Origin: Williamsia soli
GTDB lineage: Bacteria; Actinomycetota; Actinomycetes; Mycobacteriales; Mycobacteriaceae
Assembly (NCBI RefSeq): GCF_017377795.1
Contig: NZ_JAFRDR010000003.1
Span: forward strand, 434,001-498,000
Reading direction: 5' to 3'
Length of the DNA stretch: 64,000 bases
The translations under genes and the position numbers were made by a program. Positions 17,814 through 63,286 of this stretch are shown piece after piece. How positions within the stretch are numbered: position 1 is the first letter of the stretch; each line of letters starts with the position of its first letter. Below the pieces are notes generated by a model. That model did no database searches, was not told where the DNA came from, and worked only from the letters and a program-made list of their open reading frames with translations.

Positions 17814-17898
17814 GGACACGCGCCCCTCGACAGGCCGAGCGCCGACATTGGGCCTACGCTTCTCCACATCGTCGTCGCCTGATCGCCTAGAGGAAGTC

Positions 17899-18624
17899 GT
17901 GCCACCTCCCCGCCCCCATCGCCCGCTGGTGTCCTACCTGAACGGCGAGCGCTCAGGCAGCGCCCACGCGAGCGTGCTCGGCGAACTGAGGCGGGTCATC
18001 CTCGACGGCAGCGCAGCGCCGGGGTCGCCCATTCCGGTCGGCGACGTGGCCGACCTGTTCGGCGTCAGCGCGATCCCGGTTCGCGAGGCACTCAAGACAC
18101 TCATCGGCGAGGGGTTGGTGGGTCACCGGACCGGCGGCGGGTATTTCGTCGCGCAGTTGACGTTGACCGAACTGCGGGAGATCTACTTCGTCCGGGGTGT
18201 GCTCGAACAGGCGGCACTCGGACGGGCCTGCGAACTGGCGACCGACGCCGACCTCGACCGGGCGCGCGCCGAACACGAAGCCCTCCAAGAGGCGACGATC
18301 GCCGGCGATCGCCGGGCCTATCACGTGCATTCACGCCGGTTTCACCAGGCGCTCGCGAACCCGTGCGGCATGCACCGGTTGCTCAACATGTTCGATTCCA
18401 CCTGGGACATCACCGAGCCCTTCCAGGTGATGCAGGGCGCCACCGGACCCACGCAACTACAGCTGCACGGAGACCACGAGAAGATGATCGACGCGATGGC
18501 CCGCCGTGATCCGGCTGACCTCATCGCGGTGGCCAAGGCACATCACCTCCGGCTGGAATCCGTCATCATCGAGACCGCGGCTCAACTCAATGTCGCCGGC
18601 GAGGACCCCGCCACAGCCGATTAG
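17899..18624 (+). CDS. GntR-family regulator with FCD ligand domain
   Basis: A 241-residue repressor-type protein. The N-terminal winged helix has LGELRRVILDGSAAPGSPIPV, then DVADLFGVSAIPVREALKTL, the GntR recognition region, and GGGYFVAQLTLTELREIYFVR. The helical FCD domain follows with the usual metal/ligand-site residues spread over RRFHQALA, HGDHEKMIDAMARRD and AKAHHLRLE. Start GTG 17899 has AGAGGA 4 bases upstream; a TTG at 17848 without a site is less likely. It lies directly upstream of an NCS1 transporter and a racemase, with a perfect palindrome in between, so it probably controls those genes in response to a small-molecule ligand such as a hydantoin or ureide. Confidence 0.85.
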   Translation: MPPPRPHRPLVSYLNGERSGSAHASVLGELRRVILDGSAAPGSPIPVGDVADLFGVSAIPVREALKTLIGEGLVGHRTGGGYFVAQLTLTELREIYFVRGVLEQAALGRACELATDADLDRARAEHEALQEATIAGDRRAYHVHSRRFHQALANPCGMHRLLNMFDSTWDITEPFQVMQGATGPTQLQLHGDHEKMIDAMARRDPADLIAVAKAHHLRLESVIIETAAQLNVAGEDPATAD

Positions 18625-18657
18625 GCGCACGAATACAATCAGCCAAATCGCCACTCG

Positions 18658-18675
18658 CGCAGAATATATTCTGCG
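18658..18675 (+). promoter_or_regulatory. perfect 18-bp palindrome, probable GntR operator
   Basis: CGCAGAATATATTCTGCG is a perfect palindrome, and a second GAATATAT copy follows at 18675-18682. It lies 33 bases after the regulator stop and about 135 bases before the transporter start, where an operator for the transporter promoter is expected. Confidence 0.55.
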
Positions 18676-18809
18676 AATATATCCGGTTCCCTGCACTTGT
18701 CGTCGGCAATTTGTTACGCATGTAATCCGAGGGCAACATCGGAGACTTAGGTTTTTCTCAGCCATTGAAGAACCGGGTGACCGGTCCACACCAAGAGCAG
18801 GGAAAGCCC

Positions 18810-20354
18810 ATGACAGACGTCAAGACGTCGGGATCAGATCCCGAGGTACCGACAAGCCACAACAACGGTGCGGGCGAGAGCGTGATCAAGCTCAGCTACG
18901 ACCAACGCCTGACCAACGAAGATCTCGCTCCACTGAAGAACCAGAGCTGGACCTGGTACAACATCTTCGCGTTCTGGATGTCAGATGTGCACAGCGTGGG
19001 CGGATATGTGTTCGCGGGCAGCCTGTTTGCGCTCGGCATCGCGGCCTGGCAAGTGCTGGTCGCACTGGTCATCGGCATCGTGATCGTCAACGTCCTGTGC
19101 AACCTGGTCGCCAAACCATCGCAACAGGCGGGCGTGCCCTACCCCGTCACCACCCGCGTGGCGTTCGGCGTTCGCGGCGCCAATCTACCCGCGATCATTC
19201 GCGGTCTGATCGCCGTCGCCTGGTACGGAATCCAGACGTATCTGGCTTCCGTGGCATTCGGCTTGCTTGCACTCAAGTTCTGGCCGTCGCTCGAGAAGTA
19301 CAGCGAGAGCGGTGATATGGCATTCCTCGGCCTGTCCCCGCTCGGCTGGGCCGGCTTCATGCTCATGTGGGTCCTACAGGCGGTCGTGTTCTGGAACGGC
19401 ATGGAGACCATCCGCAAGTTCATCGACTTTTGTGGTCCCGCGGTCTATGTGGTGATGGTCATCCTCGCCGGTTACCTGATCTGGAAAGCCGGCTGGGACA
19501 ACGTCAGCTTCGACCTCTCCGTCGGACCCAGCAAATCGGGCTGGGCATCGATCACCGCACTGATCTCAGCGATAGCCCTTGTGGTGTCCTACTTCTCGGG
19601 ACCGATGTTGAACTTCGGCGACTTCTCTCGCTACGCCAAGACCTACGGCGACGTGAAGAAGGGCAACTTCTGGGGCCTGCCGGTGAACTTCCTGTTCTTC
19701 TCGATCCTGGTGGTCTGCACGGTCTCGGCCGGCGCCACCGTGATCGGTAAAGACGGCGAGGGCAACATCATCACCGACCCGGTCCACATCGTGGACAAGA
19801 TCGACAACACCACCGCGGCCGTGCTCGGTGTGCTGACCTTCGCCATCGCCACCATCGGCATCAACATCGTCGCCAACTTCGTCTCTCCCGCATTCGACTT
19901 CTCGAATGTGGCGCCGACGAAGATCACCTGGCGTACCGGCGGAATGATCGCGGCCGTCGGCTCCATCCTGATCACGCCGTGGAACCTGTACAACAATCCC
20001 GACGCGATCCACTACACACTGGACACCCTCGGAGCTGTCATCGGGCCACTGTTCGGCATCCTGATCGCCGACTACTACCTGATCAAGAAGCAGAAGATCA
20101 TCGTCGATGATCTGTTCACCATGGATGAGACGTCCACGTATTACTTCCGGGGCGGGGTCAACCCGGTAGCGGTCGTGGCCACCGCCGTGGGCGCGCTGAT
20201 CCCGATCGGCGTCGTCATCTGGGGTACCGCCTACCAAGCCAGCTTCACCTGGTTCATCGGTGCCGCCATCGGATTCGCGATGTACCTGGTCGGCATGAGG
20301 TTCCTGCCCAAGGAGCTCATCTACGGAACCCGCACGACGGCCGCAGCAGTCTGA
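18810..20354 (+). CDS. NCS1-family nucleobase/hydantoin/allantoin symporter
   Basis: A 514-residue protein with about 12 transmembrane segments. It matches the NCS1 (Mhp1-like) family: LKNQSWTWYNIFAFWMSDVH at the first helix, then GVPYPVTTRVAFGVRGANLP, IAVAWYGIQTYLAS in the substrate region and NFGDFSRYAK. NCS1 proteins import nucleobases, hydantoins or allantoin with Na+ or H+. A start at ATG 18810 preceded by GGGAAAG is preferred over an upstream in-frame ATG at 18765. The adjacent racemase of the hydantoin-racemase family makes a hydantoin or ureide substrate plausible, but no hydantoinase or carbamoylase gene is in the window. Confidence 0.88.
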   Translation: MTDVKTSGSDPEVPTSHNNGAGESVIKLSYDQRLTNEDLAPLKNQSWTWYNIFAFWMSDVHSVGGYVFAGSLFALGIAAWQVLVALVIGIVIVNVLCNLVAKPSQQAGVPYPVTTRVAFGVRGANLPAIIRGLIAVAWYGIQTYLASVAFGLLALKFWPSLEKYSESGDMAFLGLSPLGWAGFMLMWVLQAVVFWNGMETIRKFIDFCGPAVYVVMVILAGYLIWKAGWDNVSFDLSVGPSKSGWASITALISAIALVVSYFSGPMLNFGDFSRYAKTYGDVKKGNFWGLPVNFLFFSILVVCTVSAGATVIGKDGEGNIITDPVHIVDKIDNTTAAVLGVLTFAIATIGINIVANFVSPAFDFSNVAPTKITWRTGGMIAAVGSILITPWNLYNNPDAIHYTLDTLGAVIGPLFGILIADYYLIKKQKIIVDDLFTMDETSTYYFRGGVNPVAVVATAVGALIPIGVVIWGTAYQASFTWFIGAAIGFAMYLVGMRFLPKELIYGTRTTAAAV

Positions 20355-20367
20355 CAACCTTCCGATG

Positions 20368-20423
20368 ATGGGGCCTTTTGGCGACCGCGACCTGCGGGTT
20401 TCCTCGCCAAAAGGCCCCATTTT
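20368..20423 (+). terminator. strong intrinsic terminator
   Basis: A perfect 17-bp stem (20368-20384 with 20404-20420) encloses a 19-base loop that has its own CCGC/GCGG stem, and is followed by TTT. It lies 14 bases after the transporter stop and 25 bases before the racemase start, so it separates or attenuates expression of the two genes. Confidence 0.85.
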
Positions 20424-20447
20424 CGGTACCGATGGAAGGATGGACGC

Positions 20448-21182
20448 GTGTTACTGAGCGTGATCAACCCGAACACCACCGTCGCGATGACCGACCAGAT
20501 CGCCGCTGCCGCGCGATCGGTTGCGGCGCCGGGCACCGCGATCGTCGGCGTCACCCCGACGATGGGTCCGGCATCGATCGAATCCCACTACGACGAGGCC
20601 CTGGCGGTCCCGGGGCTACTCGAGGCGATCATCAGGAGCCAGCGCAGCGACACGCCTGCCGACGGCTATCTGGTGGCCTGCTTCGGCGACCCAGGGTTGG
20701 ACGCCGCTCGCGAGATCGCTCCGGTTCCGGTGATCGGGATAGCCGAAGCCGCGATGCATACCGCGTCACTGCTCGGACGGGGGTTCTCCGTGGTGACCAC
20801 GTTGGGCCGCACGATCGGCCGCGCCGAGGAGTTGGTGGAGCGCTACGGGATGACCAAGAGATGCCGCGGCGTCCACGCGTGCGAGATCCCGGTCCTCGAG
20901 TTGGAGACGAATCCGGACACCGCCGCGATCCTGATCGAGGCCTGCCGGGCGGCCGCCGAGGAAGATGGCTCAGATGCCATCGTGCTGGGTTGCGCCGGAA
21001 TGGCGGACCTCGCACATCTCATCGGTCAGAAGATCGGCATCCCCGTCATCGACGGTGTGGCCGCCGGCACACTGTTGCTGCAATCGCTCGTCACGATGCA
21101 GGTGACCCCCGCATCATCGGGCGAACTGGCAGCCCCACTGCCCAAGCACTACACGGGGATCCTCGCGCAGTTCGGCGAGTGA
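20448..21182 (+). CDS. Asp/Glu/hydantoin racemase family protein
   Basis: A 244-residue member of the Asp/Glu racemase superfamily, closest in pattern to hydantoin or allantoin racemases: LSVINPNTTVAMTD at the start, the first catalytic Cys in LVACFGDPGLD (~C78), SVVTTLGRT, the second catalytic Cys in IVLGCAGMADL (~C182) and PVIDGVAAG. These enzymes racemise 5-substituted hydantoins or related compounds by two-Cys acid/base chemistry. It starts at GTG 20448, 25 bases beyond a strong terminator. It pairs functionally with the NCS1 transporter upstream. Confidence 0.85.
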   Translation: MLLSVINPNTTVAMTDQIAAAARSVAAPGTAIVGVTPTMGPASIESHYDEALAVPGLLEAIIRSQRSDTPADGYLVACFGDPGLDAAREIAPVPVIGIAEAAMHTASLLGRGFSVVTTLGRTIGRAEELVERYGMTKRCRGVHACEIPVLELETNPDTAAILIEACRAAAEEDGSDAIVLGCAGMADLAHLIGQKIGIPVIDGVAAGTLLLQSLVTMQVTPASSGELAAPLPKHYTGILAQFGE

Positions 21183-21197: not shown

Positions 21198-21545
21198 TCA
21201 GCCGACCTGTCTGCTCGGCGCTGTCTGCTCCCACCCGGTATCCCCGGTGATTCCGAGCAGAATGTCCGCAACCCGATCGGCGACGCGGCCCGGGGTCTCG
21301 TCGGCCAGCCCCGGCAGGGTGCTCAGGACGGCCGCGAAGACGGCCGCGTTCGCATCCATGCCGTTCGCCTCCATCACCGTTCGATAGGCCTGGATCGTTG
21401 CGTGCAAACGCCCGTACGTGACGAAGTCGTCGCCACACTCCGCCGCGACCCGAGCGGGGCGTGCGGCTGCCACCATCTCGATCACCGCGACCGCGGGAAG
21501 AGCGGATGGGGCGGGGCGCCCTGGCGCCGGGATCGTATCGCTCAC
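21198..21545 (-). CDS. small stand-alone protein resembling an NRPS A-domain N-terminal fragment
   Basis: A 115-residue protein from GTG 21545. Residues ~15-105 align by eye with four other segments in the window: the proteins at 58485 and 59473, and two insertions in the giant NRPS. Shared features are a short helix ending in A(A)RP, an acidic/Gly turn followed by V(T/S)Y or LNY (here DDFVTYGRLHATI), then G(M/I/V)D, and a closing LSTLPGL...RVADRVADIL. The first half looks like the beginning of an adenylation domain (A1-A2 region); the second half diverges. It lacks all ATP- and substrate-binding motifs, so it cannot be an adenylating enzyme. Role unknown. Confidence 0.6.
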   Translation of the reverse strand: MSDTIPAPGRPAPSALPAVAVIEMVAAARPARVAAECGDDFVTYGRLHATIQAYRTVMEANGMDANAAVFAAVLSTLPGLADETPGRVADRVADILLGITGDTGWEQTAPSRQVG

Positions 21546-21643
21546 GAGGATCTACCTTCGGTTTCTGCGCGGGCGCGAGAATGCGCTGTTCTTTATTGGT
21601 GCTATGTGTACAGCACCGTCACAGGCCCTGTCTGCAGGAAAAC

Positions 21644-21678
21644 CATAAGATTTCTTATGACCTGCATCACTGCAGGTC
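21644..21678. promoter_or_regulatory. two back-to-back inverted repeats
   Basis: CATAAGA-TT-TCTTATG (21644-21659) and GACCTGCA-TCAC-TGCAGGTC (21659-21678) are both perfect and share one base. A further CTGCAGG copy is at 21632-21638. They lie in the region between the minus-strand small gene (start 21545) and the plus-strand glycosyltransferase (21877), suggesting a compound operator or tandem hairpin controlling one or both. Confidence 0.45.
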
Positions 21679-21876
21679 AGAGCGTTAGCGGAGGTAAACA
21701 ACGGATCGCAAATAAGTGAGCTTCAGAGTCAGTTCTGTCCGTCAAGTGGAGAAGTCGCGGTGGCACTCGCAGCGTCGTCAGTCGCCCGACGAGCGAGAGT
21801 CGCCTTGATCACAGACGAGCAATCGATGTTCCTCAGACCTGTAGCATAGCTAGTTAGCGTGCCACAATTGGTTCTC

Positions 21877-22752
21877 ATGACTCAGCCAACGCTCTCGCTG
21901 GTGATCCCGGCGTACAACGAGGCCGACACGATCGGATCACTTCTGACCTCTCTGCAGACCGAGCTGGACCACATCGAGGAGATCATCGTGGTCGACAACG
22001 CGTCTACTGACGAGACGGCCGACATCGTCGAGGGTTTTCGCCCGGCAATCCCCCAGCTCAAGGTGATCTCCGAGTCCAGGCGAGGCGTCGTCGCTGCACG
22101 AAACGCCGGCTTCGACCTCGCCAAGGGCGACATCATCGGCCGACTGGATGCCGATGCCCGCGCCAAGCCCGGATGGGCGAAGGCAACGCGTACTTTCTTT
22201 GCGAACGCGGACACATCGATCGGTGCGGGTACCGGTTTCTTCGACCAGTACGACATGCCCCTGCAGTTCTTGCACAAGAAGTTGCTCAGCAAAGCGTTCG
22301 ATCACGCACGAAAGAACAACGGCAACGTCCACTCGCTGTTCGGCGCGAACATGGCCGTCCGCGCTGACACCTGGAAAGAGATCCGGCCACTGCTGCTGGA
22401 GCAAGATGGCATCTTCGATGATCTCGACATAACCCTGTGCGTGAACGAGGTCGGCAAGCGCAGCGTCGTGATCCCGGACATGCACATCAGTGCCTCTGGT
22501 CGACGCATGCTGTCCGACACCAAGACCTACGCAAAGTTCACCGCCTACATGCCGGCCACCCTCGAAGCGCGCGGCATGCCCGCAGCGGCGAAACGATCGT
22601 GGGCAAACGTCAGGACGATGCGAGCCCTCCACCTCATCTTCTGGGTGCCGTCGCGAGCCTGGAATCCGACAACCGAACGTTATTCGCTTCGGCATCTCTT
22701 CTCGAAGCACAAACAACGCGCGTTGCCTTACGCCACGGCGCACGACGCGTGA
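21877..22752 (+). CDS. family 2 glycosyltransferase
   Basis: A 291-residue inverting GT-A glycosyltransferase: LSLVIPAYNEADTIGSLL at the N-terminus, IVVDNASTDETADI (nucleotide-sugar binding), RRGVVAARNAGFDLAKGDIIGRLDADAR (with the DXD-like metal motif DAD), FGANMAVR and a DDLDITLCV acceptor-side acidic motif. No transmembrane segment is evident apart from a weak C-terminal hydrophobic stretch. It might glycosylate an envelope lipid or the NRPS product, but only proximity supports that. Start: ATG 21877 gives a typical N-terminus. A GTG at 21859, 11 bases after a TAGCAT -10-like element (21842-21847), would add six residues and fit a near-leaderless transcript. Confidence 0.85.
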   Translation: MTQPTLSLVIPAYNEADTIGSLLTSLQTELDHIEEIIVVDNASTDETADIVEGFRPAIPQLKVISESRRGVVAARNAGFDLAKGDIIGRLDADARAKPGWAKATRTFFANADTSIGAGTGFFDQYDMPLQFLHKKLLSKAFDHARKNNGNVHSLFGANMAVRADTWKEIRPLLLEQDGIFDDLDITLCVNEVGKRSVVIPDMHISASGRRMLSDTKTYAKFTAYMPATLEARGMPAAAKRSWANVRTMRALHLIFWVPSRAWNPTTERYSLRHLFSKHKQRALPYATAHDA

Positions 22753-23113
22753 ACTGTGGGCGTTCGGGAAACAGGGCCCTATTCCTCCCATCCGAACGCT
22801 CTGCCCGAACATCAATATCCAGCCAGATTATGCGAATAAACGCCGCGACAAAGACCTGCAGAGTTTTCTTGCATTCGGGAGCCCAATCAATTCAATGACT
22901 CGAGGCTGACGTAACTCGACATATGAATTTCTTTTTCCGGACTCGGTGTGGCGACCTCCCCTACCTGCAACGCTTTGCGTTGAGGCGACCATCTACCTGC
23001 GTGATATCGTCACTCGACCAAGCCTGACATTGTGACCTCTCACCACTCGTTCAGCTCAGGAGCGAATGTCGAGTAGAACGACGTGCGGGGCGAACGCTGG
23101 GAGAAACAGTTAG
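22753..23113 (+). other. intergenic region upstream of the lipase
   Basis: About 360 bases, lower in GC than the flanking genes (an AT-rich stretch around 22810-22935). No gene is supported. It probably carries the lipase promoter, but no clear -35/-10 pair stands out. GGGAGAAAC before 23114 is the likely ribosome-binding site. Confidence 0.5.
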
Positions 23114-24034
23114 ATGCATTTTTCGAATCGTCAGATTCGGCCGCTAGTCGTCACCATTCTGGTATGCCTCATCGCGTTGTGCGGCTTCGCCGTGCCGGCC
23201 TCGGCCGATCCTGCGTCTGAATCGCCCGCCGGAGCAAACGACTGGGGCTGCACACCCACAGTCGAGCATCCCCGCCCGATCGTGCTGGTGCACGGGACGT
23301 GGGCTGACATGGCTACGACGTGGAAGACGCTGTCCCCCGCGCTCAAGGAGCAGGGCTACTGCGTGTACGCCCTCAATTACGGAACCCGCGACCCACAGAG
23401 TGGCCAGAACCTCCTCGATCTCGTCGGCGGCAACACGATCAGACACTCCGCCGACGCACTGGCCGAATTCGTCTCCCGCGTCCGGTCGGCCAGCGGTGGC
23501 AGTCAAGTCGACCTCGTCGGTCATTCGCAGGGTGCGCTCGTCGCTCGTGAGTACCTCAAGTCCTCGGGCGGTTCGGACGCCACGCGACCCGCACGCAATG
23601 CAGTGCACTCTCTGGTGAGCCTGGCCGGAACCAATCAGGGCACCAGCTTCAACATCAACCAGCAACTCGGCGCGATCGCCGAGATGCTCGGTATTCCCGT
23701 GGTTCGCCTCGCAGCGGCAACCGTGGGGCCCTCGTATGTCGAGCAGATGGCCGGTTCGCCGTTCCTGCGTGACCTCAACGCAGGGGGCGACACCAGGCCA
23801 GGGGTCCGCTACGTCGCGGTCGCCACCAAGAACGACACCATGGTGACCCCGCCGGAGAACGCGTTCCTGCGGCCCGGGGCCGGCGGCGATGTGACCAACG
23901 TATGGGTTCAAGACGGATGCGCTTCCGCGCGAGTCGACCACATGAAGGTGACCAGCAGCCCGCGCTCGGTGTGGATCGTCCTCAACGCCCTCGACCCGGA
24001 GTACGGCCGCAATCACCCGGCGCCCTGTCCCTGA
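23114..24034 (+). CDS. secreted alpha/beta-hydrolase lipase
   Basis: A 306-residue protein with a Sec signal peptide (hydrophobic core ~11-27, probable cleavage after PASA at residue 31). It is then an alpha/beta hydrolase of the actinobacterial triacylglycerol lipase/esterase type: IVLVHGTW provides the oxyanion region, nucleophile S138 lies in VGHSQGALVA, the acid is in ATKNDTMVTP and the His is in VDHMKVTS. Cys residues in WGCTP, GYCVY, DGCAS and PAPCP suggest two disulfides. It likely acts outside the cell on lipid esters. It converges with the NRPS gene and ends before a strong hairpin, so membership in the NRPS pathway is uncertain. Confidence 0.88.
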   Translation: MHFSNRQIRPLVVTILVCLIALCGFAVPASADPASESPAGANDWGCTPTVEHPRPIVLVHGTWADMATTWKTLSPALKEQGYCVYALNYGTRDPQSGQNLLDLVGGNTIRHSADALAEFVSRVRSASGGSQVDLVGHSQGALVAREYLKSSGGSDATRPARNAVHSLVSLAGTNQGTSFNINQQLGAIAEMLGIPVVRLAAATVGPSYVEQMAGSPFLRDLNAGGDTRPGVRYVAVATKNDTMVTPPENAFLRPGAGGDVTNVWVQDGCASARVDHMKVTSSPRSVWIVLNALDPEYGRNHPAPCP

Positions 24035-24058
24035 TCTGACCCGTACGCGACAACCGAC

Positions 24059-24098
24059 ACATCCGGCATTCCTCTTCGGAATGCCGGATGTTCTGTTT
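24059..24098. terminator. terminator hairpin between lipase and NRPS
   Basis: A perfect 14-bp stem (24059-24072 with 24078-24091), loop TCTTC, is followed by TCTGTTTG on the plus strand. It serves the lipase gene and may also stop transcription of the NRPS gene arriving from the other side. Confidence 0.75.
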
Positions 24099-24112
24099 GT
24101 TCAAGTCTGACT

Positions 24113-24146
24113 GGGCTGTCCCCTCCAGACTGTCCGGGCTGTCCCC

Positions 24147-24148
<2 letters not shown>
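24113..24148. repeat. 13-bp direct repeat next to the NRPS stop
   Basis: GGGCTGTCCCCTC occurs at 24113-24125 and 24136-24148, with a 23-bp period; the second copy runs into the NRPS stop codon. It may be replication slippage or a remnant; no function is evident. Confidence 0.5.
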
Positions 24149-58064
<33,916 letters not shown>

Positions 58065-58484
58065 TCTCGAACGACTGCTCGGCTCGGCCTCAAATCATGA
58101 CGTTTGCGTGCTCCGACAAATGTATCGACCGAAGTCTTCATCGTTTACATTGTGCCGAGCAACGGGTTAGTCCAACAGTAACCACGCGAGCGGGCCGCGG
58201 TTAACAGACACGCGATATGGCGTGTCTATCTGTGACCTATCGACCAGGCTGTCACACGCGTTACAGGAGTTCAAAGCGGCCCTGGACCGGTTCCGCGATG
58301 CAGCTGCAAGCTGCACCAACTTGTAGTTCTCTATGCTAAATATCCCTCATGAGAGGCAATACCGAACAGCAGAGATACCGCAAACGCCTGTCGTGCAATT
58401 GAATGGGTCACACACCCGGCTCATTGGAGACAAATCAAACAACGGTAGGCCGCGTGTGCGGCGACGACTCGGTCGGACGACGGC
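58065..58484 (-). promoter_or_regulatory. upstream region of the NRPS gene
   Basis: About 420 bases without a credible gene, AT-richer than the flanks. It contains a perfect 8-bp inverted repeat AGACACGC-N6-GCGTGTCT (58206-58227) and, next to it, TGTGAC-N14-GTCACA (58231-58256), both plausible operator sites for the NRPS promoter. No unambiguous -10/-35 pair is seen. Confidence 0.4.
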
Positions 58485-58913
58485 TTATGCGCTCGACAAC
58501 CGGCTGGCGATGACGCGGAGGTCCATCTCGCTCGTCCGATTCGCACGCACGGGCTGACGCGGCGGCTCGGTGGCCATGTCCAACTGGTTCAAATCGGCGC
58601 CGATCCGGGCCAACGCGGCGTCTACGACCGAGGCCACGACCGCTGAATCGGGTTCCGAACCAAGGTTGGGTATGCCGGCAAAGATAGCCGCCACCACGGC
58701 CGAGCGATCGTCCATGTTCTGACTGCGGGTGACGGGCATCATCAGGTTGATGGCGGCCAACAGATCGCGGTAGTTGAGCCCGCGGGCGCGGTACCGGACC
58801 ACAACACGATCCGGCGTCACACGAGTCAGTCGTGACACCGCTTCCGGCAGCTGAGCCAGGGGCACGGCGAACTCCGCGGTGACCTCTTCGTTCCGGACTG
58901 TGGAAATAGCCAT
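58485..58913 (-). CDS. small protein with A-domain-fragment-like core, upstream of the NRPS
   Basis: A 142-residue protein, ATG 58913. Residues ~30-110 share the layout of the window's A-fragment-like units: VTPDRVVVRYRARGLNYRDL, a Met/Asp turn (NMDDRSAVVAAIFAGIPNL) and AVVASVVDAALARI. It is the most divergent of the five copies, and its ~25-residue N-terminus (ISTVRNEEVTAEFAVPLAQL) is distinct. No catalytic motif is visible. It lies between the mbtH-like gene and the NRPS on the same strand, which suggests a service role for the synthetase: fold helper, docking piece or regulator. Confidence 0.65.
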   Translation of the reverse strand: MAISTVRNEEVTAEFAVPLAQLPEAVSRLTRVTPDRVVVRYRARGLNYRDLLAAINLMMPVTRSQNMDDRSAVVAAIFAGIPNLGSEPDSAVVASVVDAALARIGADLNQLDMATEPPRQPVRANRTSEMDLRVIASRLSSA

Positions 58914-59155
58914 CTGCTCACCAACCTGTGCGTGTACCCCGACCCCAATTGGGCCAGCGTAGCTATATTCACAGTACCCGAACGAGAAGGGAAGAGAGAA
59001 TGGCTAAGCTGTTACACGATTGAAGTGTGATCCACGCCACACTCAGCGTCCGCTGGGCGCTGACCTGCGAAAACAGACTCGAGCCACGACCGATTGCCGC
59101 ACATCTGATGGTGCGGCAACGTCAAACAGTAATGATCTTGACGATCAACTGTAAC

Positions 59156-59377
59156 TTACTTCGCCGAATCTGCTTCCATCGCATCGATGAGGCTCTGCGG
59201 CCGCAGATCCGTCCAGTGCTCGTTCACATAGTCGAGGCACTCCGAGCGAGACGCTTCGCCGAAGACCTTGTTCCAGCCCGCAGGGATGTCGGCGAACGTA
59301 GGCCACAGGGAATGCTGATTCTCGTCGTTGACCAGCACAAAGAAACGGCCGTCTTCGTCATCGAATGGGTTGCTCAT
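59156..59377 (-). CDS. MbtH-like protein
   Basis: A 73-residue protein with every hallmark of the MbtH family: N-terminal [24 protein letters not shown], then [24 protein letters not shown] and the closing TDLRPQSL. MbtH-like proteins bind adenylation domains and are needed for folding or activity of many NRPSs. Start ATG 59377 has a near-perfect AGGAGGG 7 bases upstream; an in-frame extension to 59416 is rejected. Location upstream of the NRPS on the same strand makes the giant synthetase its likely partner. Confidence 0.96.
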
Positions 59378-59472
59378 GGCAGACCCTCCTGTCGTGTCTC
59401 GCTTCGCGCAGCCCACGACGAGCCCGCCGGATGGTCACCGACGCCCAGGCACCGGGCGTAGGCAACCGCAGG

Positions 59473-59841
59473 TCAGACCTGTTGTGGTTCTGCGAGAACC
59501 ATCATTGCTTGAATACGTATCGCGGTAAGCGTATCCGCGAGCCCCTTCGGTCCCGCAACCGCCAGTCCCGGAACTGCCGTCATCAGCGCGACGGTCAACG
59601 CGGAATCGTCGATACCGGTTTCACTGGCCATCGCGATCGCGGCGCTCTGCGCGCGAGCCTTCAATTCGCCGAAGCTCACGGCGTGGTCGTTGTCGCGGCT
59701 GATCACTGCCGGTTTGTCCCGCGCAGCGTCCGCCGCCGCGAGCACCAGCTGAGTGAGGGTCCTAGTACCCCGATCGCGAAATCCACGTTCGTCGGGTCGG
59801 GCCGACGGTCCCCTGCCAATATGGCGGAGCTGCAGTACCAC
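59473..59841 (-). CDS. small A-domain-fragment-like protein upstream of mbtH
   Basis: A 122-residue protein from GTG 59841, chosen because GGGAGGG lies 4 bases upstream; an ATG at 59889 is the alternative. Residues ~25-115 follow the shared unit: LTQLVLAAADAARDKPAVIS, DHAVSFGELKARAQ, GIDDSALTVALMTAVPGL and GPKGLADTLTAI. The first half reads like the opening of an adenylation domain; no ATP-binding motif is present. It is the first gene of the apparent minus-strand set (this gene, mbtH, the protein at 58485, NRPS) and is divergent from the transporter genes. Confidence 0.65.
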   Translation of the reverse strand: MVLQLRHIGRGPSARPDERGFRDRGTRTLTQLVLAAADAARDKPAVISRDNDHAVSFGELKARAQSAAIAMASETGIDDSALTVALMTAVPGLAVAGPKGLADTLTAIRIQAMMVLAEPQQV

Positions 59842-59902
59842 AACGCCCTCCCATCTCGCCTCGTGCGTCGAATGCGACCTACGAAACACGTTCTCGTTGA
59901 TC

Positions 59903-60105: not shown

Positions 60106-61176
60106 ATGCAAGCGAGGCGAGGCCGAGTTACGGGAACCAGCAGTGCGCGGGACGAACCGGCGACAACAGCGTTCGCTTCTGCAGACGACGGGCTCAGGGG
60201 CGCGGGCGGCAACCGCCGGACGAACAGCGTCGTGGCGGACGGTCTGGTCAAACGGTTCGGCACCTTCACCGCGGTCGACGGAATCAGTTTCGCGGTGCCG
60301 ACCGGAACAGTCCTTGGTTTGCTCGGCCCCAACGGTGCCGGCAAGACCACCACCGTCAACATGCTCGCCACTCTGCTCACACCCGACGGGGGTAGCGCCC
60401 ACATCGCCGGCTACGACGTGGTGAAGGATCGCGCGTCGGTCCGAAAGTCCATCATGCTGACCGGCCAGTTCGCGGCCCTCGACGAGTCGTTGACCGGCCG
60501 TGAGAACCTCATCCTCTTCGGCCGGTTGATGGGTCTGAGGAAAAGCGACGCCCTGACCCGCGCCGACGAGTTGCTCGAAGCGTTCAACCTCGTCGAGGCC
60601 GCATCGCGGCGGGTCGGCAAGTTCTCCGGCGGTATGCGCCGGCGGATCGACATCGCGTGCGGACTGGTCGTCCGTCCGGAAGTGGTGTTTCTCGACGAGC
60701 CGACCACGGGCCTCGACCCCCGCAGCCGTCAAGACGTGTGGAACATCGTCACGTCGTTACGCGAGCAGGGCATCACAACCCTGCTCACCACCCAGTATCT
60801 CGAAGAGGCGGACCTCCTCAGCGACAACATCGTGGTCATCGACAAGGGCAAGGTCATCGCGGAAGGCACCGCGGGAGAACTCAAAGAACAGGTCAGCGGC
60901 ACGTTCTGCGAGGTGGTGCCCAGCTACCCCGATGACCTGAAGAAGATCAAGGCATTGCTGTCCGACCTGGTGCCGCCCGACCAGATCCGCATCGACCTCG
61001 CCCGGACATCGCTGACCCTCCCCGCAGTCATGGCGACCCAGACCCTCGTCGAGATAGTTCGGCGCACAGACGCTGCCGGGATCGAGTTGACCGACGTCGG
61101 CCTCCGACGCCCCTCGCTCGACGACGTGTTCCTCAAACTCACCGAGGGCCCAAAGGCCACCGGAGCGCGCCCATGA
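60106..61176 (+). CDS. DrrA-type ABC transporter ATP-binding protein
   Basis: A 356-residue ATPase. A ~40-residue Ala/Arg-rich N-terminal tail precedes the ABC domain: Walker A GLLGPNGAGKTT, Q-loop LTGQFAALDESLTGREN, signature KFSGGMRRRIDIA and Walker B EVVFLDEPTTGLDP, with LLTTQYLEEADLLSD. The C-terminal ~80 residues fit the DUF4162-like domain of daunorubicin-resistance (DrrA) transporters. It should power export by the two ABC-2 permeases encoded next. Its stop overlaps the next ATG by 4 bases. In mycobacteria, DrrABC exports a complex envelope lipid beside an acyltransferase gene; this arrangement is similar. Confidence 0.92.
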   Translation: MQARRGRVTGTSSARDEPATTAFASADDGLRGAGGNRRTNSVVADGLVKRFGTFTAVDGISFAVPTGTVLGLLGPNGAGKTTTVNMLATLLTPDGGSAHIAGYDVVKDRASVRKSIMLTGQFAALDESLTGRENLILFGRLMGLRKSDALTRADELLEAFNLVEAASRRVGKFSGGMRRRIDIACGLVVRPEVVFLDEPTTGLDPRSRQDVWNIVTSLREQGITTLLTTQYLEEADLLSDNIVVIDKGKVIAEGTAGELKEQVSGTFCEVVPSYPDDLKKIKALLSDLVPPDQIRIDLARTSLTLPAVMATQTLVEIVRRTDAAGIELTDVGLRRPSLDDVFLKLTEGPKATGARP

Positions 61177-61988
61177 CGACGCTGACCCCGGCCCGGGTCG
61201 TGTCGTCCGGCGACAACCATCCGACGGTTCGTCCTGTTCGGCAGTGGCTCGCACTGACGACTCGTTCGCTGATCGGAATGAAACGCCGCGGTGAGTTCTT
61301 CCTGTGCGTGACGGCGCCCGTTCTGCTGACGATCTGCTTCTACATCCCGCTGCGCACGATCATGGACGGTTACCCGGGCATGAACTACGCGCAGTTCCTG
61401 ATGCCCGTGATCTGCCTTCAATCGGTCGGCTTCGTCGCGACCTCGGCAGCGATGCGCGCGGCGACCGACGGCAGCCTCGGGTTGACCAACCGGCTCCGCA
61501 GCATGCCGGTCAGCGTGATCGTCCCGCTGATGGCCCGATTGTGCGCCAATGTCGTCCTGCTCGTCATATCGCTGAGCTGGGCGCTGATCTCCGGCCTGGT
61601 GATCGGATGGCGCCCGGAGGCCGGACTGCTGAACTTTCTGGGGTTTCTTTCCGTGTCGATGGTCGTGGGGATCATTCTCGCGTTCGGCGCAGACACCATC
61701 GGAGCGATCAGCAAGAACCCTCAGGCGACCAGCCAGGCGCTCGCTCTCCCCCAGTTGATCCTCGGAATGCTCTCGACCGGGTTCGTTCCGGAGGAGCGCT
61801 TTCCCGACTGGATCAGGCCCTTCGCCCGTAACCAGCCGATCTCCCAGTTCGCAGAACTGATGCGTGGCTTCGACAGCGGGACCGCGACCTGGGACATGGC
61901 CTTGCCGTCGGTGTGCTGGGCCGCAGGTATCGCAGCGATCGGCATCATCGGAGGAGCCTGGGTGACCATCCGGAGCAGCAGGCGATGA
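61173..61988 (+). CDS. ABC-2 type permease (DrrB/DrrC-like), first subunit
   Basis: A 271-residue membrane protein with six hydrophobic segments and the ABC-2 signature region: GLTNRLRSMPVSVIVPLMAR before TM3 and FVPEERFPDWIRPFARNQPISQFAELMRG after TM5. It partners with the upstream ATPase and the following permease; both junctions are 4-base ATGA overlaps, implying equal, coupled production. Confidence 0.9.
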   Translation: MTTLTPARVVSSGDNHPTVRPVRQWLALTTRSLIGMKRRGEFFLCVTAPVLLTICFYIPLRTIMDGYPGMNYAQFLMPVICLQSVGFVATSAAMRAATDGSLGLTNRLRSMPVSVIVPLMARLCANVVLLVISLSWALISGLVIGWRPEAGLLNFLGFLSVSMVVGIILAFGADTIGAISKNPQATSQALALPQLILGMLSTGFVPEERFPDWIRPFARNQPISQFAELMRGFDSGTATWDMALPSVCWAAGIAAIGIIGGAWVTIRSSRR

Positions 61989-63286
61989 GCGACGCAGATG
62001 TCGACCGCCCGGGCGGCGGCTGGAGTTCTGAGCCTCGCCGCCCGCGGCATCGTGGCGACGACGCCGCGCAGAGCGATCATTGGTGGCGGACGAGCGATTC
62101 GGCACCTCGAACGCGCCGGCGAGCCTCTCCCGATGACGAGCCCACCACACGCCTGGACATGTCGAAGTCCCGACAAGAGATCCGTGGCATCGGTTCACGC
62201 CGAACCATGGTCGGGCCGTGGACCATGCTCTCTCCCGGAGCCGCGACCTCGGACTGGACCGCCGAACAGATCGCGGAACGGCATGCAGAGGCGACAGCCG
62301 GTGTCGGCCAGCGCGTCGACCGCCAGGTCACCACGTTCACCGATCGTGGGTCGCTCGACTATGTCGAGTTGTCTCCTGAACTGCAGCAAGCCGAGACAGA
62401 GCGGCTGGATCTGGGTCAGATCGCCGCCCGAGCCGCAGAGGCGGACGCCGCCGAACATGCCACATCGGGCCTGGCGACCCGGTTCCCGTCGGCCGCGGAG
62501 ACCGACGAACGCGGACTCCGGGCATATCTCCGGCACACCAAGATCCTGACCGGTCGACAGCTGCGGGTCGTCACCCGCGACCGGCTCACGCTGATGCAGA
62601 GCATGCTCTTCCCGCTGCTGAGCATGGTGATGTTCAAGGTTGTGCTCGGTGATGCGATCGGTCAGGCGACCGGACAGAACAGCGCGTACGGCACCGTGCC
62701 CCTGGTTGTGCTGGTGGGGGCGATGTTCGGCTCGCTCGCTGTCGGGACCCGGTTGATCAGCGAGCGCAGAACCGGTTTGCTGACAAGGCTTTACGTCATG
62801 CCGGTACACCGCGGGTCCGACCTCACCTCCCGCGTCAACGTCGAGATGGTCAGGATTCTGGCAAGCACGCTCGTGCTCACCTCGGCAGGAATGTTGATCG
62901 GCTGGCGCTTCAATCAGGGCATACTTCCCGCGCTCGGGATCTTCGGTGTCGCGTTGCTCTACGGAGCCGCGTACTCGACCATTGTTCTGACGCTGGCGGT
63001 TTCCGCTTCGAACGCTCCCCTGGTTCCGATCATGTCGCTGTGCACCAGCCTGTTGATGTTCTTCAACTCGGGCTTCTCACCGATCGAGGCCTATCCCGAA
63101 GTTCTTCAACCGCTCGTGCGCAACCAGCCCATGACATGTGCGATCGAGACCATGCGCGCGCTCGCGACCGGGGGGCCGGTCGCGGAGAACCTGACCAAGA
63201 CCGTCCTGTGGGCGGTCGCCGCACTGTTGCTCTTCATCTACCCCGCGATGCGCGGGTACCGTCGTGCCGCAGCTTCGAGAACCTGA
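61985..63286 (+). CDS. ABC-2 type permease with long hydrophilic N-terminal extension
   Basis: A 433-residue protein. The C-terminal ~240 residues are a typical six-TM ABC-2 permease (GLLTRLYVMPVHRGSDLTSR; NSGFSPIEAYPEVLQPLVRN). Unlike its partner, it carries ~195 residues of charged, Arg/Asp/Glu/Ala-rich sequence before the first membrane helix, including TAEQIAERHAEATAGVGQRV and ELQQAETERLDLGQIAARAAEA, which look helical. ATG 61985 overlaps the previous stop; the frame is open further upstream (61913) but inside the previous gene. The extension may be a cytoplasmic docking or regulatory domain. Confidence 0.88.
   Translation: MSDADVDRPGGGWSSEPRRPRHRGDDAAQSDHWWRTSDSAPRTRRRASPDDEPTTRLDMSKSRQEIRGIGSRRTMVGPWTMLSPGAATSDWTAEQIAERHAEATAGVGQRVDRQVTTFTDRGSLDYVELSPELQQAETERLDLGQIAARAAEADAAEHATSGLATRFPSAAETDERGLRAYLRHTKILTGRQLRVVTRDRLTLMQSMLFPLLSMVMFKVVLGDAIGQATGQNSAYGTVPLVVLVGAMFGSLAVGTRLISERRTGLLTRLYVMPVHRGSDLTSRVNVEMVRILASTLVLTSAGMLIGWRFNQGILPALGIFGVALLYGAAYSTIVLTLAVSASNAPLVPIMSLCTSLLMFFNSGFSPIEAYPEVLQPLVRNQPMTCAIETMRALATGGPVAENLTKTVLWAVAALLLFIYPAMRGYRRAAASRT

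Follow-up and report, generated by a model that had tools for sequence, protein, structure and literature searches.

What purpose is served by a domain of about 90 residues that is encoded both as small free genes and inside a giant nonribosomal peptide synthetase (NRPS)? Five copies were found in the window analysed here (the whole stretch of 64,000 nucleotides from Williamsia soli, contig NZ_JAFRDR010000003.1, positions 434,001 to 498,000 of the forward strand): two in-chain copies, m3 and m5, between the condensation (C) and adenylation (A) domains of modules 3 and 5 of one NRPS, and three stand-alone genes, s59, s58 and s21. A sequence-only reading of the window offered four roles (fold helper, interdomain spacer, docking partner, decoy); the position of the domain in other genomes favours the docking partner, because copies sit there at both ends of NRPS subunits that are split between C and A. 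The proposal made here is that the domain serves in docking and joins NRPS subunits whose shared module is cut between C and A; the probability of this reading is put at roughly 0.7.

Results and Discussion

Pairing at split modules

The first lead came from a search of relatives followed by a profile search of the loci, which returned NRPS open reading frames (ORFs) ending or beginning with a copy. The order C-copy-stop, start-copy-A was observed in Rhodococcus, Prescottella, Rhodococcoides, Antrihabitans and Nocardia; one copy, placed after the last C domain, ends the upstream subunit (C-terminal, CT), and the other, placed before the first A domain, starts the downstream subunit (N-terminal, NT). 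Nocardia farcinica has the same paired arrangement; tblastn of plasmid records with a CT sequence gave one N. farcinica record, and the same search with s59 gave no match.

Two sets of loci were examined. Among 40 loci picked by hand from a family-wide search and fetched, 38 were NRPS loci (L067–L104) and two were stand-alone loci; 37 of the 38 read C-copy-stop, start-copy-A-T (T, thiolation domain), the exception (L089) having the N-terminal copy only. A scan of 84,980 named species genomes against an alignment of C-terminal-type sequences, meant to loosen the bias of this choice, gave both copies in 43 of 44 loci. The match fell on the CT-type copy in 40 loci, with the NT partner present in 39 of these, and on the NT copy in four (L144–L147). 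The narrow CT alignment used as query biases the named loci toward the CT type of Rhodococcus and relatives, and the two sets overlap in organisms (e.g., L067 and L149). In the named set the CT copy lies 37–43 residues after C and 3–18 residues before the stop, and the NT copy 15–28 residues before A. The CT and NT copies are thus placed as expected of docking domains, at the extreme ends of subunits and as matched pairs on consecutive subunits (43/44 and 37/38); the in-chain copies of the window do not occupy such ends. One named locus, L112 (CP121458.1), carries its CT-type copy in a 278-codon ORF with neither C domain nor NT partner, unlike the 43 others; a broken frame or a sequence error is possible.

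Over all fetched loci both copies were present in 92, which correspond to 67 distinct sequence pairs (some contigs being counted twice), and they lie on one strand in 92/92. CT copies end 3–35 residues before the stop (median 8; 89 rows, duplicates included), and NT copies lie 15–28 residues ahead of the first A domain; partners are 26–46% identical (median 38%; 80 pairs, repeated contigs included). The distance from C to the domain (CT and in-chain copies; median 51 residues, n = 88) is close to that of ordinary C–A junctions (median 56, n = 202), so that these copies begin where an A domain would begin. In 26 chosen genomes the matches listed (to ~6e-11) comprised 26 adjacent pairs, no lone CT copy, six NT copies without an adjacent CT copy and seven stand-alone copies; two of the genomes had no copy among these matches.

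It may be asked whether the splits are real, or whether C-copy-copy-A is one chain divided by a stop that is read through or by an assembly error. Some pairs do share a frame that is interrupted by just one TAG or TGA. However, just 28 of the 80 pairs (repeats of the same contigs included) are in one frame, several of these 28 have more than one stop, the domains are 51–239 nt apart, and the split recurs in many independent assemblies; among the fetched loci, most with a partial NRPS, the sole ORF with two full-length copies is that of the window, in which m3 and m5 are far apart. Artefactual splits are accordingly regarded as very improbable.

Identity of the five copies

The five segments had been described as sharing one layout, and they do form one family: all are present, all lie on the minus strand, and all are homologous over ~90 residues. 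The giant NRPS gene (24147..58064, minus strand; 11,305 aa with nine A-domain signature motifs, as given by ORF list, translation and motif count) holds m3 (48576..48848, minus strand; 49 residues after C and 31 before A of module 3) and m5 (41745..42023, minus strand; 53 residues after C and 16 before A of module 5). The stand-alone genes, on the same strand, are s59 (59473..59889, domain 59491–59772, stop 5 residues past the domain), s58 (58485..58913, domain 58587–58865, followed by 34 residues) and s21 (21198..21545, domain 21234–21509), which lies 2.6 kb past the 3' end of the NRPS gene. The plus strand of 21198–21545 reads as an unrelated peptide, the minus strand as a 115-aa protein. 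Short-frame matches to s21 in G001, G002, G004 and G007 (family-wide search, not aligned singly) are probable orthologues; such G handles, like genus labels of the kind g1 or g9, are working labels of the sampled genomes and genera. Four of the five ranges given in the sequence-only reading were right; that of module 3 (48560–48850) is out of frame and runs into stops, the in-frame segment being 48576–48848. The ORF of segment 59473–59841 reaches 59889.

The profile search on which the grouping had been staked was made with leave-one-out profiles (four segments each), and the segments do retrieve one another: the missing one was found over nearly its full length in 5/5 cases, E 1.1e-13 (21198), 1.4e-5 (58485), 7.9e-10 (59473), 4.4e-5 (m3) and 8.9e-13 (m5). 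The best E-value in the control, 20 shuffles of the window ORFs, was 0.014. The matches of ordinary A domains from this NRPS extend no further than two thirds of the profile (position ~69); with 58485 left out, two of these partial matches ranked above the segment by E-value. Across the whole genome, a 94-row profile (to E 1e-6) gave five full-length matches (E 5.1e-20 or better), all in the window; the next-best match (5.4e-9) stops at profile position 58.

The family is also, as had been supposed, unnamed: no Pfam or NCBIfam model covers the unit as a whole (E up to 10). A PAS_8 match (E 0.0018) is below its cut-off, and so is a RipC match of s58 (E 5.2e-4, 19.5 bits vs a cut-off of 425). 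Within the genus (four relatives for m5), the ratio of nonsynonymous to synonymous substitution rates (dN/dS) is 0.07–0.14 for s59, 0.02–0.11 for s58 and 0.02–0.06 for m5, some dS values being near saturation; all three are under purifying selection. This is a real, undescribed domain family.

Predicted fold and descent

The AlphaFold model of s59 is a confident single-domain fold (mean predicted local distance difference test score, pLDDT, 93.0; predicted template modelling score, pTM, 0.84) of ~90 residues with two strands and four helices, in the order helix-strand-strand-helix-helix-helix. Adenylating enzymes make up 48 of the 50 listed structural matches; ~77 residues across the whole length of the domain align with A domains, over an A-domain span of roughly 200–230 residues. 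The first half had been called A-domain-like, and for the family this holds (hhalign probability 96.5%, 54 columns against nine A-domain N-termini); furthermore, the CT profile finds the A domain of LgrA at 6.5e-8 (positions 9–70). The second half had been called unlike A domains. In sequence it is; given the alignment of the predicted fold, it may correspond to a more downstream portion of the A domain.

Taken singly, m3, m5 and 59473 gave weak matches to roughly the first 50 positions of Pfam AMP-binding (PF00501), the best of them covering model positions 4–47 of 384, and 58485 and 21198 gave none up to E 10. No copy reaches a full-length match above the gathering score (18.9 vs 29.9 bits); common ancestry of the N-terminal part is supported by hhalign, the LgrA match and the structural matches. 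An A domain has several hundred residues vs ~90 here, and no A3 signature lies inside the unit, which is presumably not catalytic. The proposed origin of the domain is the beginning of an A domain which, after loss of the catalytic part, turned into a compact unit.

Such an origin raises the question of whether the copies are scars, that is, functionless remnants of A domains that persisted after a module was deleted or a gene was split. Their likeness to the first part of an A domain would fit, as would their position at the point where such a domain begins. Scars would not, however, be expected to show dN/dS values of 0.02–0.14, a common second half that was not found in the A-domain sequences of the giant NRPS, stand-alone genes and a gene order conserved across genera, or a confident, stable predicted fold; this explanation is hardly credible.

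CT and NT types

Profiles were built for the CT and NT types of Rhodococcus and of genera g9/g12. The types are separable: all 62 CT and all 64 NT copies score best with the profile of their own type (training rows included). For 34 stand-alone rows the best profile was g9/g12 CT in 15, g9/g12 NT in 15 and Rhodococcus CT in four, two of the four being of s58 type. Proteins of s59 type fall to g9/g12 CT by wide margins, whereas those of s58 and s21 type fall mostly to g9/g12 NT, by small margins for s58; s21 is NT-like. A quick tree placed the s58/s21 type with g9/g12 NT copies (Shimodaira–Hasegawa-like approximate likelihood ratio test, SH-aLRT, 92) and the s59 type with CT copies (89). In a careful tree, eight s59-type rows and seven CT rows from split NRPSs of g9/g12 form a clade (support 97/93); a second set of 11 rows (96/80) unites the s58 and s21 types with four mbtH-linked g9 rows and contains no NT copies. 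By this grouping, s58 and s21 appear to belong with a second, mbtH-linked lineage. A one-clade test of s59-type and g9/g12 CT copies under a looser label, with three mbtH-linked g9 copies added, gave p 0.106, by which monophyly is neither rejected nor shown.

The s59-type proteins also end soon after the domain: 5 residues follow it in s59, 2–8 in 15 of 16 mbtH-flanking genomes and 7 in g12; the s59-type protein of L018 (G003) has 38 residues after the domain and an insertion inside it. Judged by its sequence, s59 resembles the CT half of a docking pair that has come loose from its C domain. The free copies might act as competitors or caps, controlling the choice of joining subunits by blocking docking. 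It would suit this role that s59 is a CT-type domain without a C domain, grouped with CT copies in the 97/93 clade and ending as they do; against it, the window genome holds no split NRPS copy to block, and the role is considered rather doubtful.

Of the in-chain copies, 22 of 23 rows score best with a CT-type profile. For m3 the CT-type profile is the best (65 vs 46 bits), and the trees place it with class II copies, NT and CT, mostly NT; m5 is nearest to A-domain N-termini in the quick tree. Two classes of pair coexist in G093 and G028, with 38–41% identity between the classes for CT and 29–31% for NT, as expected of orthogonal docking.

Gene order and distribution

Upstream of the NRPS gene, and in the same direction, lie s59, an MbtH-like gene (59156..59416, minus strand) and s58. 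The gene between the two copies had been taken as MbtH-like, and PF03621 bears this out (E 1.1e-29); the match begins at residue 14, a Met, and 59377 may be the actual start of the gene. The order s59 type, mbtH, s58 type was found in 16 of 17 checked genomes with the pair (genera g1, g16 and g18), by which the supposed link to mbtH is borne out as well. In g12 the stand-alone pair occurs without mbtH. Four of six g9 genomes (L194, L195, L209, L211) have a single stand-alone copy behind mbtH where an NRPS cluster ends, the NRPS ahead of mbtH ending in a thioesterase in L209 and L211; in the other two (L210, L212) mbtH is present and the stand-alone copy is known only from the profile-match listing. 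One further stand-alone copy (L208, G148:C2:2064481) lies in a 259-codon ORF with ~160 residues ahead of the domain; no NRPS domains were found in the 11.5 kb fetched.

MbtH-like proteins are likewise small, NRPS-associated and encoded beside stand-alone copies, although none of the five copies of the window gave a PF03621 match up to E 10. The domain could, like them, be a fold helper: a local stabiliser or spacer of the C–A interface of its own module, with the stand-alone copies as soluble helpers made together with MbtH. The place of mbtH between the two upstream stand-alone genes (16/17) and beside a stand-alone copy in four g9 genomes speaks for this, as does the C-copy-A order kept by the in-chain copies. 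It fits poorly with the finding that outside the giant NRPS the NRPS copies seen occupy the ends of proteins and, with few exceptions, form matched pairs on consecutive subunits. Moreover, mbtH was found in none of the CT/NT loci checked, a weak test on stretches that are mostly NRPS gene, and one lone NT copy (L205) does have mbtH just upstream. The stabiliser is judged unlikely, and docking across the C|A cut is preferred.

Orthologues of the giant NRPS were found in 15 genomes of g23, g6, g13 and g10, with m3 and m5 as the sole full-length copies among the matches listed (to ~2e-9); m3 was also present in 5/5 further genomes checked, for which the family-wide search had not listed it. The stretch upstream of the orthologous NRPS, viewed in ten of the 15 genomes (~1.4 kb in one, ~5 kb in the others), contains no stand-alone copy and no mbtH. 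Wider samples (200 genomes of the order, E up to 1e-9; 345 of the class, E up to 1e-12) gave full-length matches in the family of the window only; those listed outside it extend no further than position 72 and come from ordinary A domains. The family-wide tally (234/251 genomes) includes ordinary A domains and was not used as a count of the domain.

As regards the neighbourhood, s21 is parted from the NRPS gene by opposite-strand genes for a family 2 glycosyltransferase and a class 2 lipase (21859–24034, plus strand), just past the NRPS 3' end, which could tailor a lipopeptide or be unrelated. An ATP-binding cassette (ABC) transporter ATPase (PF00005) and two ABC-2 membrane proteins (60106–63286, plus strand) are divergent from the s59-mbtH-s58-NRPS genes; that they export the product is a guess. 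A GntR/FCD regulator, a cytosine/purine-type permease and an Asp/Glu/hydantoin racemase stand in a row at 17848–21182 (plus strand), adjoining s21.

The docking proposal and the evidence against it

Since the CT copy takes the position at which an A domain would start, the CT–NT pair most likely serves to deliver the A domain of the downstream protein to its C-domain partner upstream; CT and NT would, for this, bind each other. In the window, m3 and m5 are kept inside one giant NRPS, with the free copies s59 (CT-type), s58 and s21 supplied beside it. These free halves may bind one another, or else m3 and m5, as adaptors for docking or stabilising the C/A interfaces in modules 3 and 5. The adaptor role, suggested by the relatives, is the weakest step of the proposal.

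Several results weigh against docking by a CT–NT pair or lend it no support. In the AlphaFold model of the natural tandem (stop read through, 15 joined rows) both halves are well formed, but the pTM of the joined pair is 0.44, so no confident CT–NT interface is predicted. The distances of CT and NT copies are correlated (0.73), less strongly than those of either with the flanking C and A domains, and a partial Mantel test gave no CT–NT coevolution beyond flanking C and A (r -0.24, 59 pairs; r 0.03 without the divergent groups, 51 pairs). The six lone NT copies in the 26 chosen genomes start A-first NRPS ORFs, and a simple two-ended scheme does not accommodate the in-chain and stand-alone copies. 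The window itself has no CT–NT pair on consecutive subunits; its copies are the least typical, odd in number (five), and none is at a split. In four other genera that share the in-chain copies, stand-alone copies are absent from the matches listed and from the upstream stretches viewed. An even copy number in every system was considered and dropped, the window having five copies and the six g9 genomes searched three each.

Lone NT copies and possible coupling to several partners

The lone NT copies of G093 and G028 belong to the second class of pair (57–86% identical to its NT). G093 has one class II CT copy and three class II NT copies (65–86% identical) on separate A-first subunits, two of which (L206, G093:C5; L205, G093:C16) follow an NRPS subunit that ends in a thioesterase; it had been considered that these preceding subunits end in T, which was ruled out. 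Because the preceding subunits end in a thioesterase, the two lone subunits are not simply the next link of the line. In L205, mbtH lies between the thioesterase-ended subunit and the copy-A subunit, which starts without a C domain. The layout of L205 and L206 suggests branched use of an upstream C-terminal subunit. G072 has a duplicated NT subunit without a neighbouring CT copy; it is a whole-gene duplicate (domain 93%, A 93%, C 92%), so the likeness of its NT copies is no evidence of selection on docking alone.

Tentatively, the C|A coupling could be exchangeable, with one upstream subunit feeding several downstream ones and the free halves acting as soluble adaptors that re-route or tune the coupling. 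If true, this would be a natural, switchable counterpart of the artificial exchange-unit NRPS.

Comparison with known docking domains

The domain was compared with the COM, PAX and β-hairpin classes of docking domain. The β-hairpin docking domain is Pfam TubC_N; no TubC_N is among the Pfam matches of the unit (E up to 10, at which the HMMER filters drop most weak matches), and the junction here is C|A. COM domains work at epimerization/condensation (E/C) junctions by a short donor helix docking on C, as opposed to a C|A junction and a domain of 90 residues that is predicted to be folded; PAX domains form a three-helix bundle at junctions of peptidyl carrier protein (PCP) and C, as opposed to the C|A junction and the predicted two strands and four helices. 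In the excerpt of PMC9113145 used here, the COM, PAX and β-hairpin (bHD/SLiM) classes stand at E/C and PCP/C-type junctions, between modules, whereas here the cut is inside a module; the present domain differs from them also in its predicted fold, its A-domain origin and its homologous partners. Docking domains are typically located between two modules, according to the excerpt of PMC8362031. The nearest likeness in that excerpt is the type S NRPS, in which the same C-A linker is cut, the downstream subunit starts with A, and the artificial C-A split is rejoined by SYNZIP coiled coils; here a natural pair occupies that position.

Searches of the open-licence literature, at the level of abstract openings, and the excerpts of PMC5550956, PMC13324335, PMC4035055 and PMC10212144 brought up no account of a natural docking pair for C|A junctions or of the small genes. 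Most likely, the domain represents a new class of docking domain, with a new junction and a new origin.

Conclusion

In the excerpt of PMC8362031, NRPSs are cut by engineers in the C-A linker in order to swap A-first units, which are rejoined by borrowed synthetic coiled coils. A natural C|A pair, in at least two sequence classes across Rhodococcus and relatives, would give ready-made parts for such work and a direct test of the way in which C and A need to be held. It would, in addition, exemplify the turning of a catalytic-domain fragment into a connector. For the organisms themselves, the split NRPS clusters of Rhodococcus and Nocardia would have to be re-read, since a module can span two proteins, and one NRPS subunit may serve several partners.

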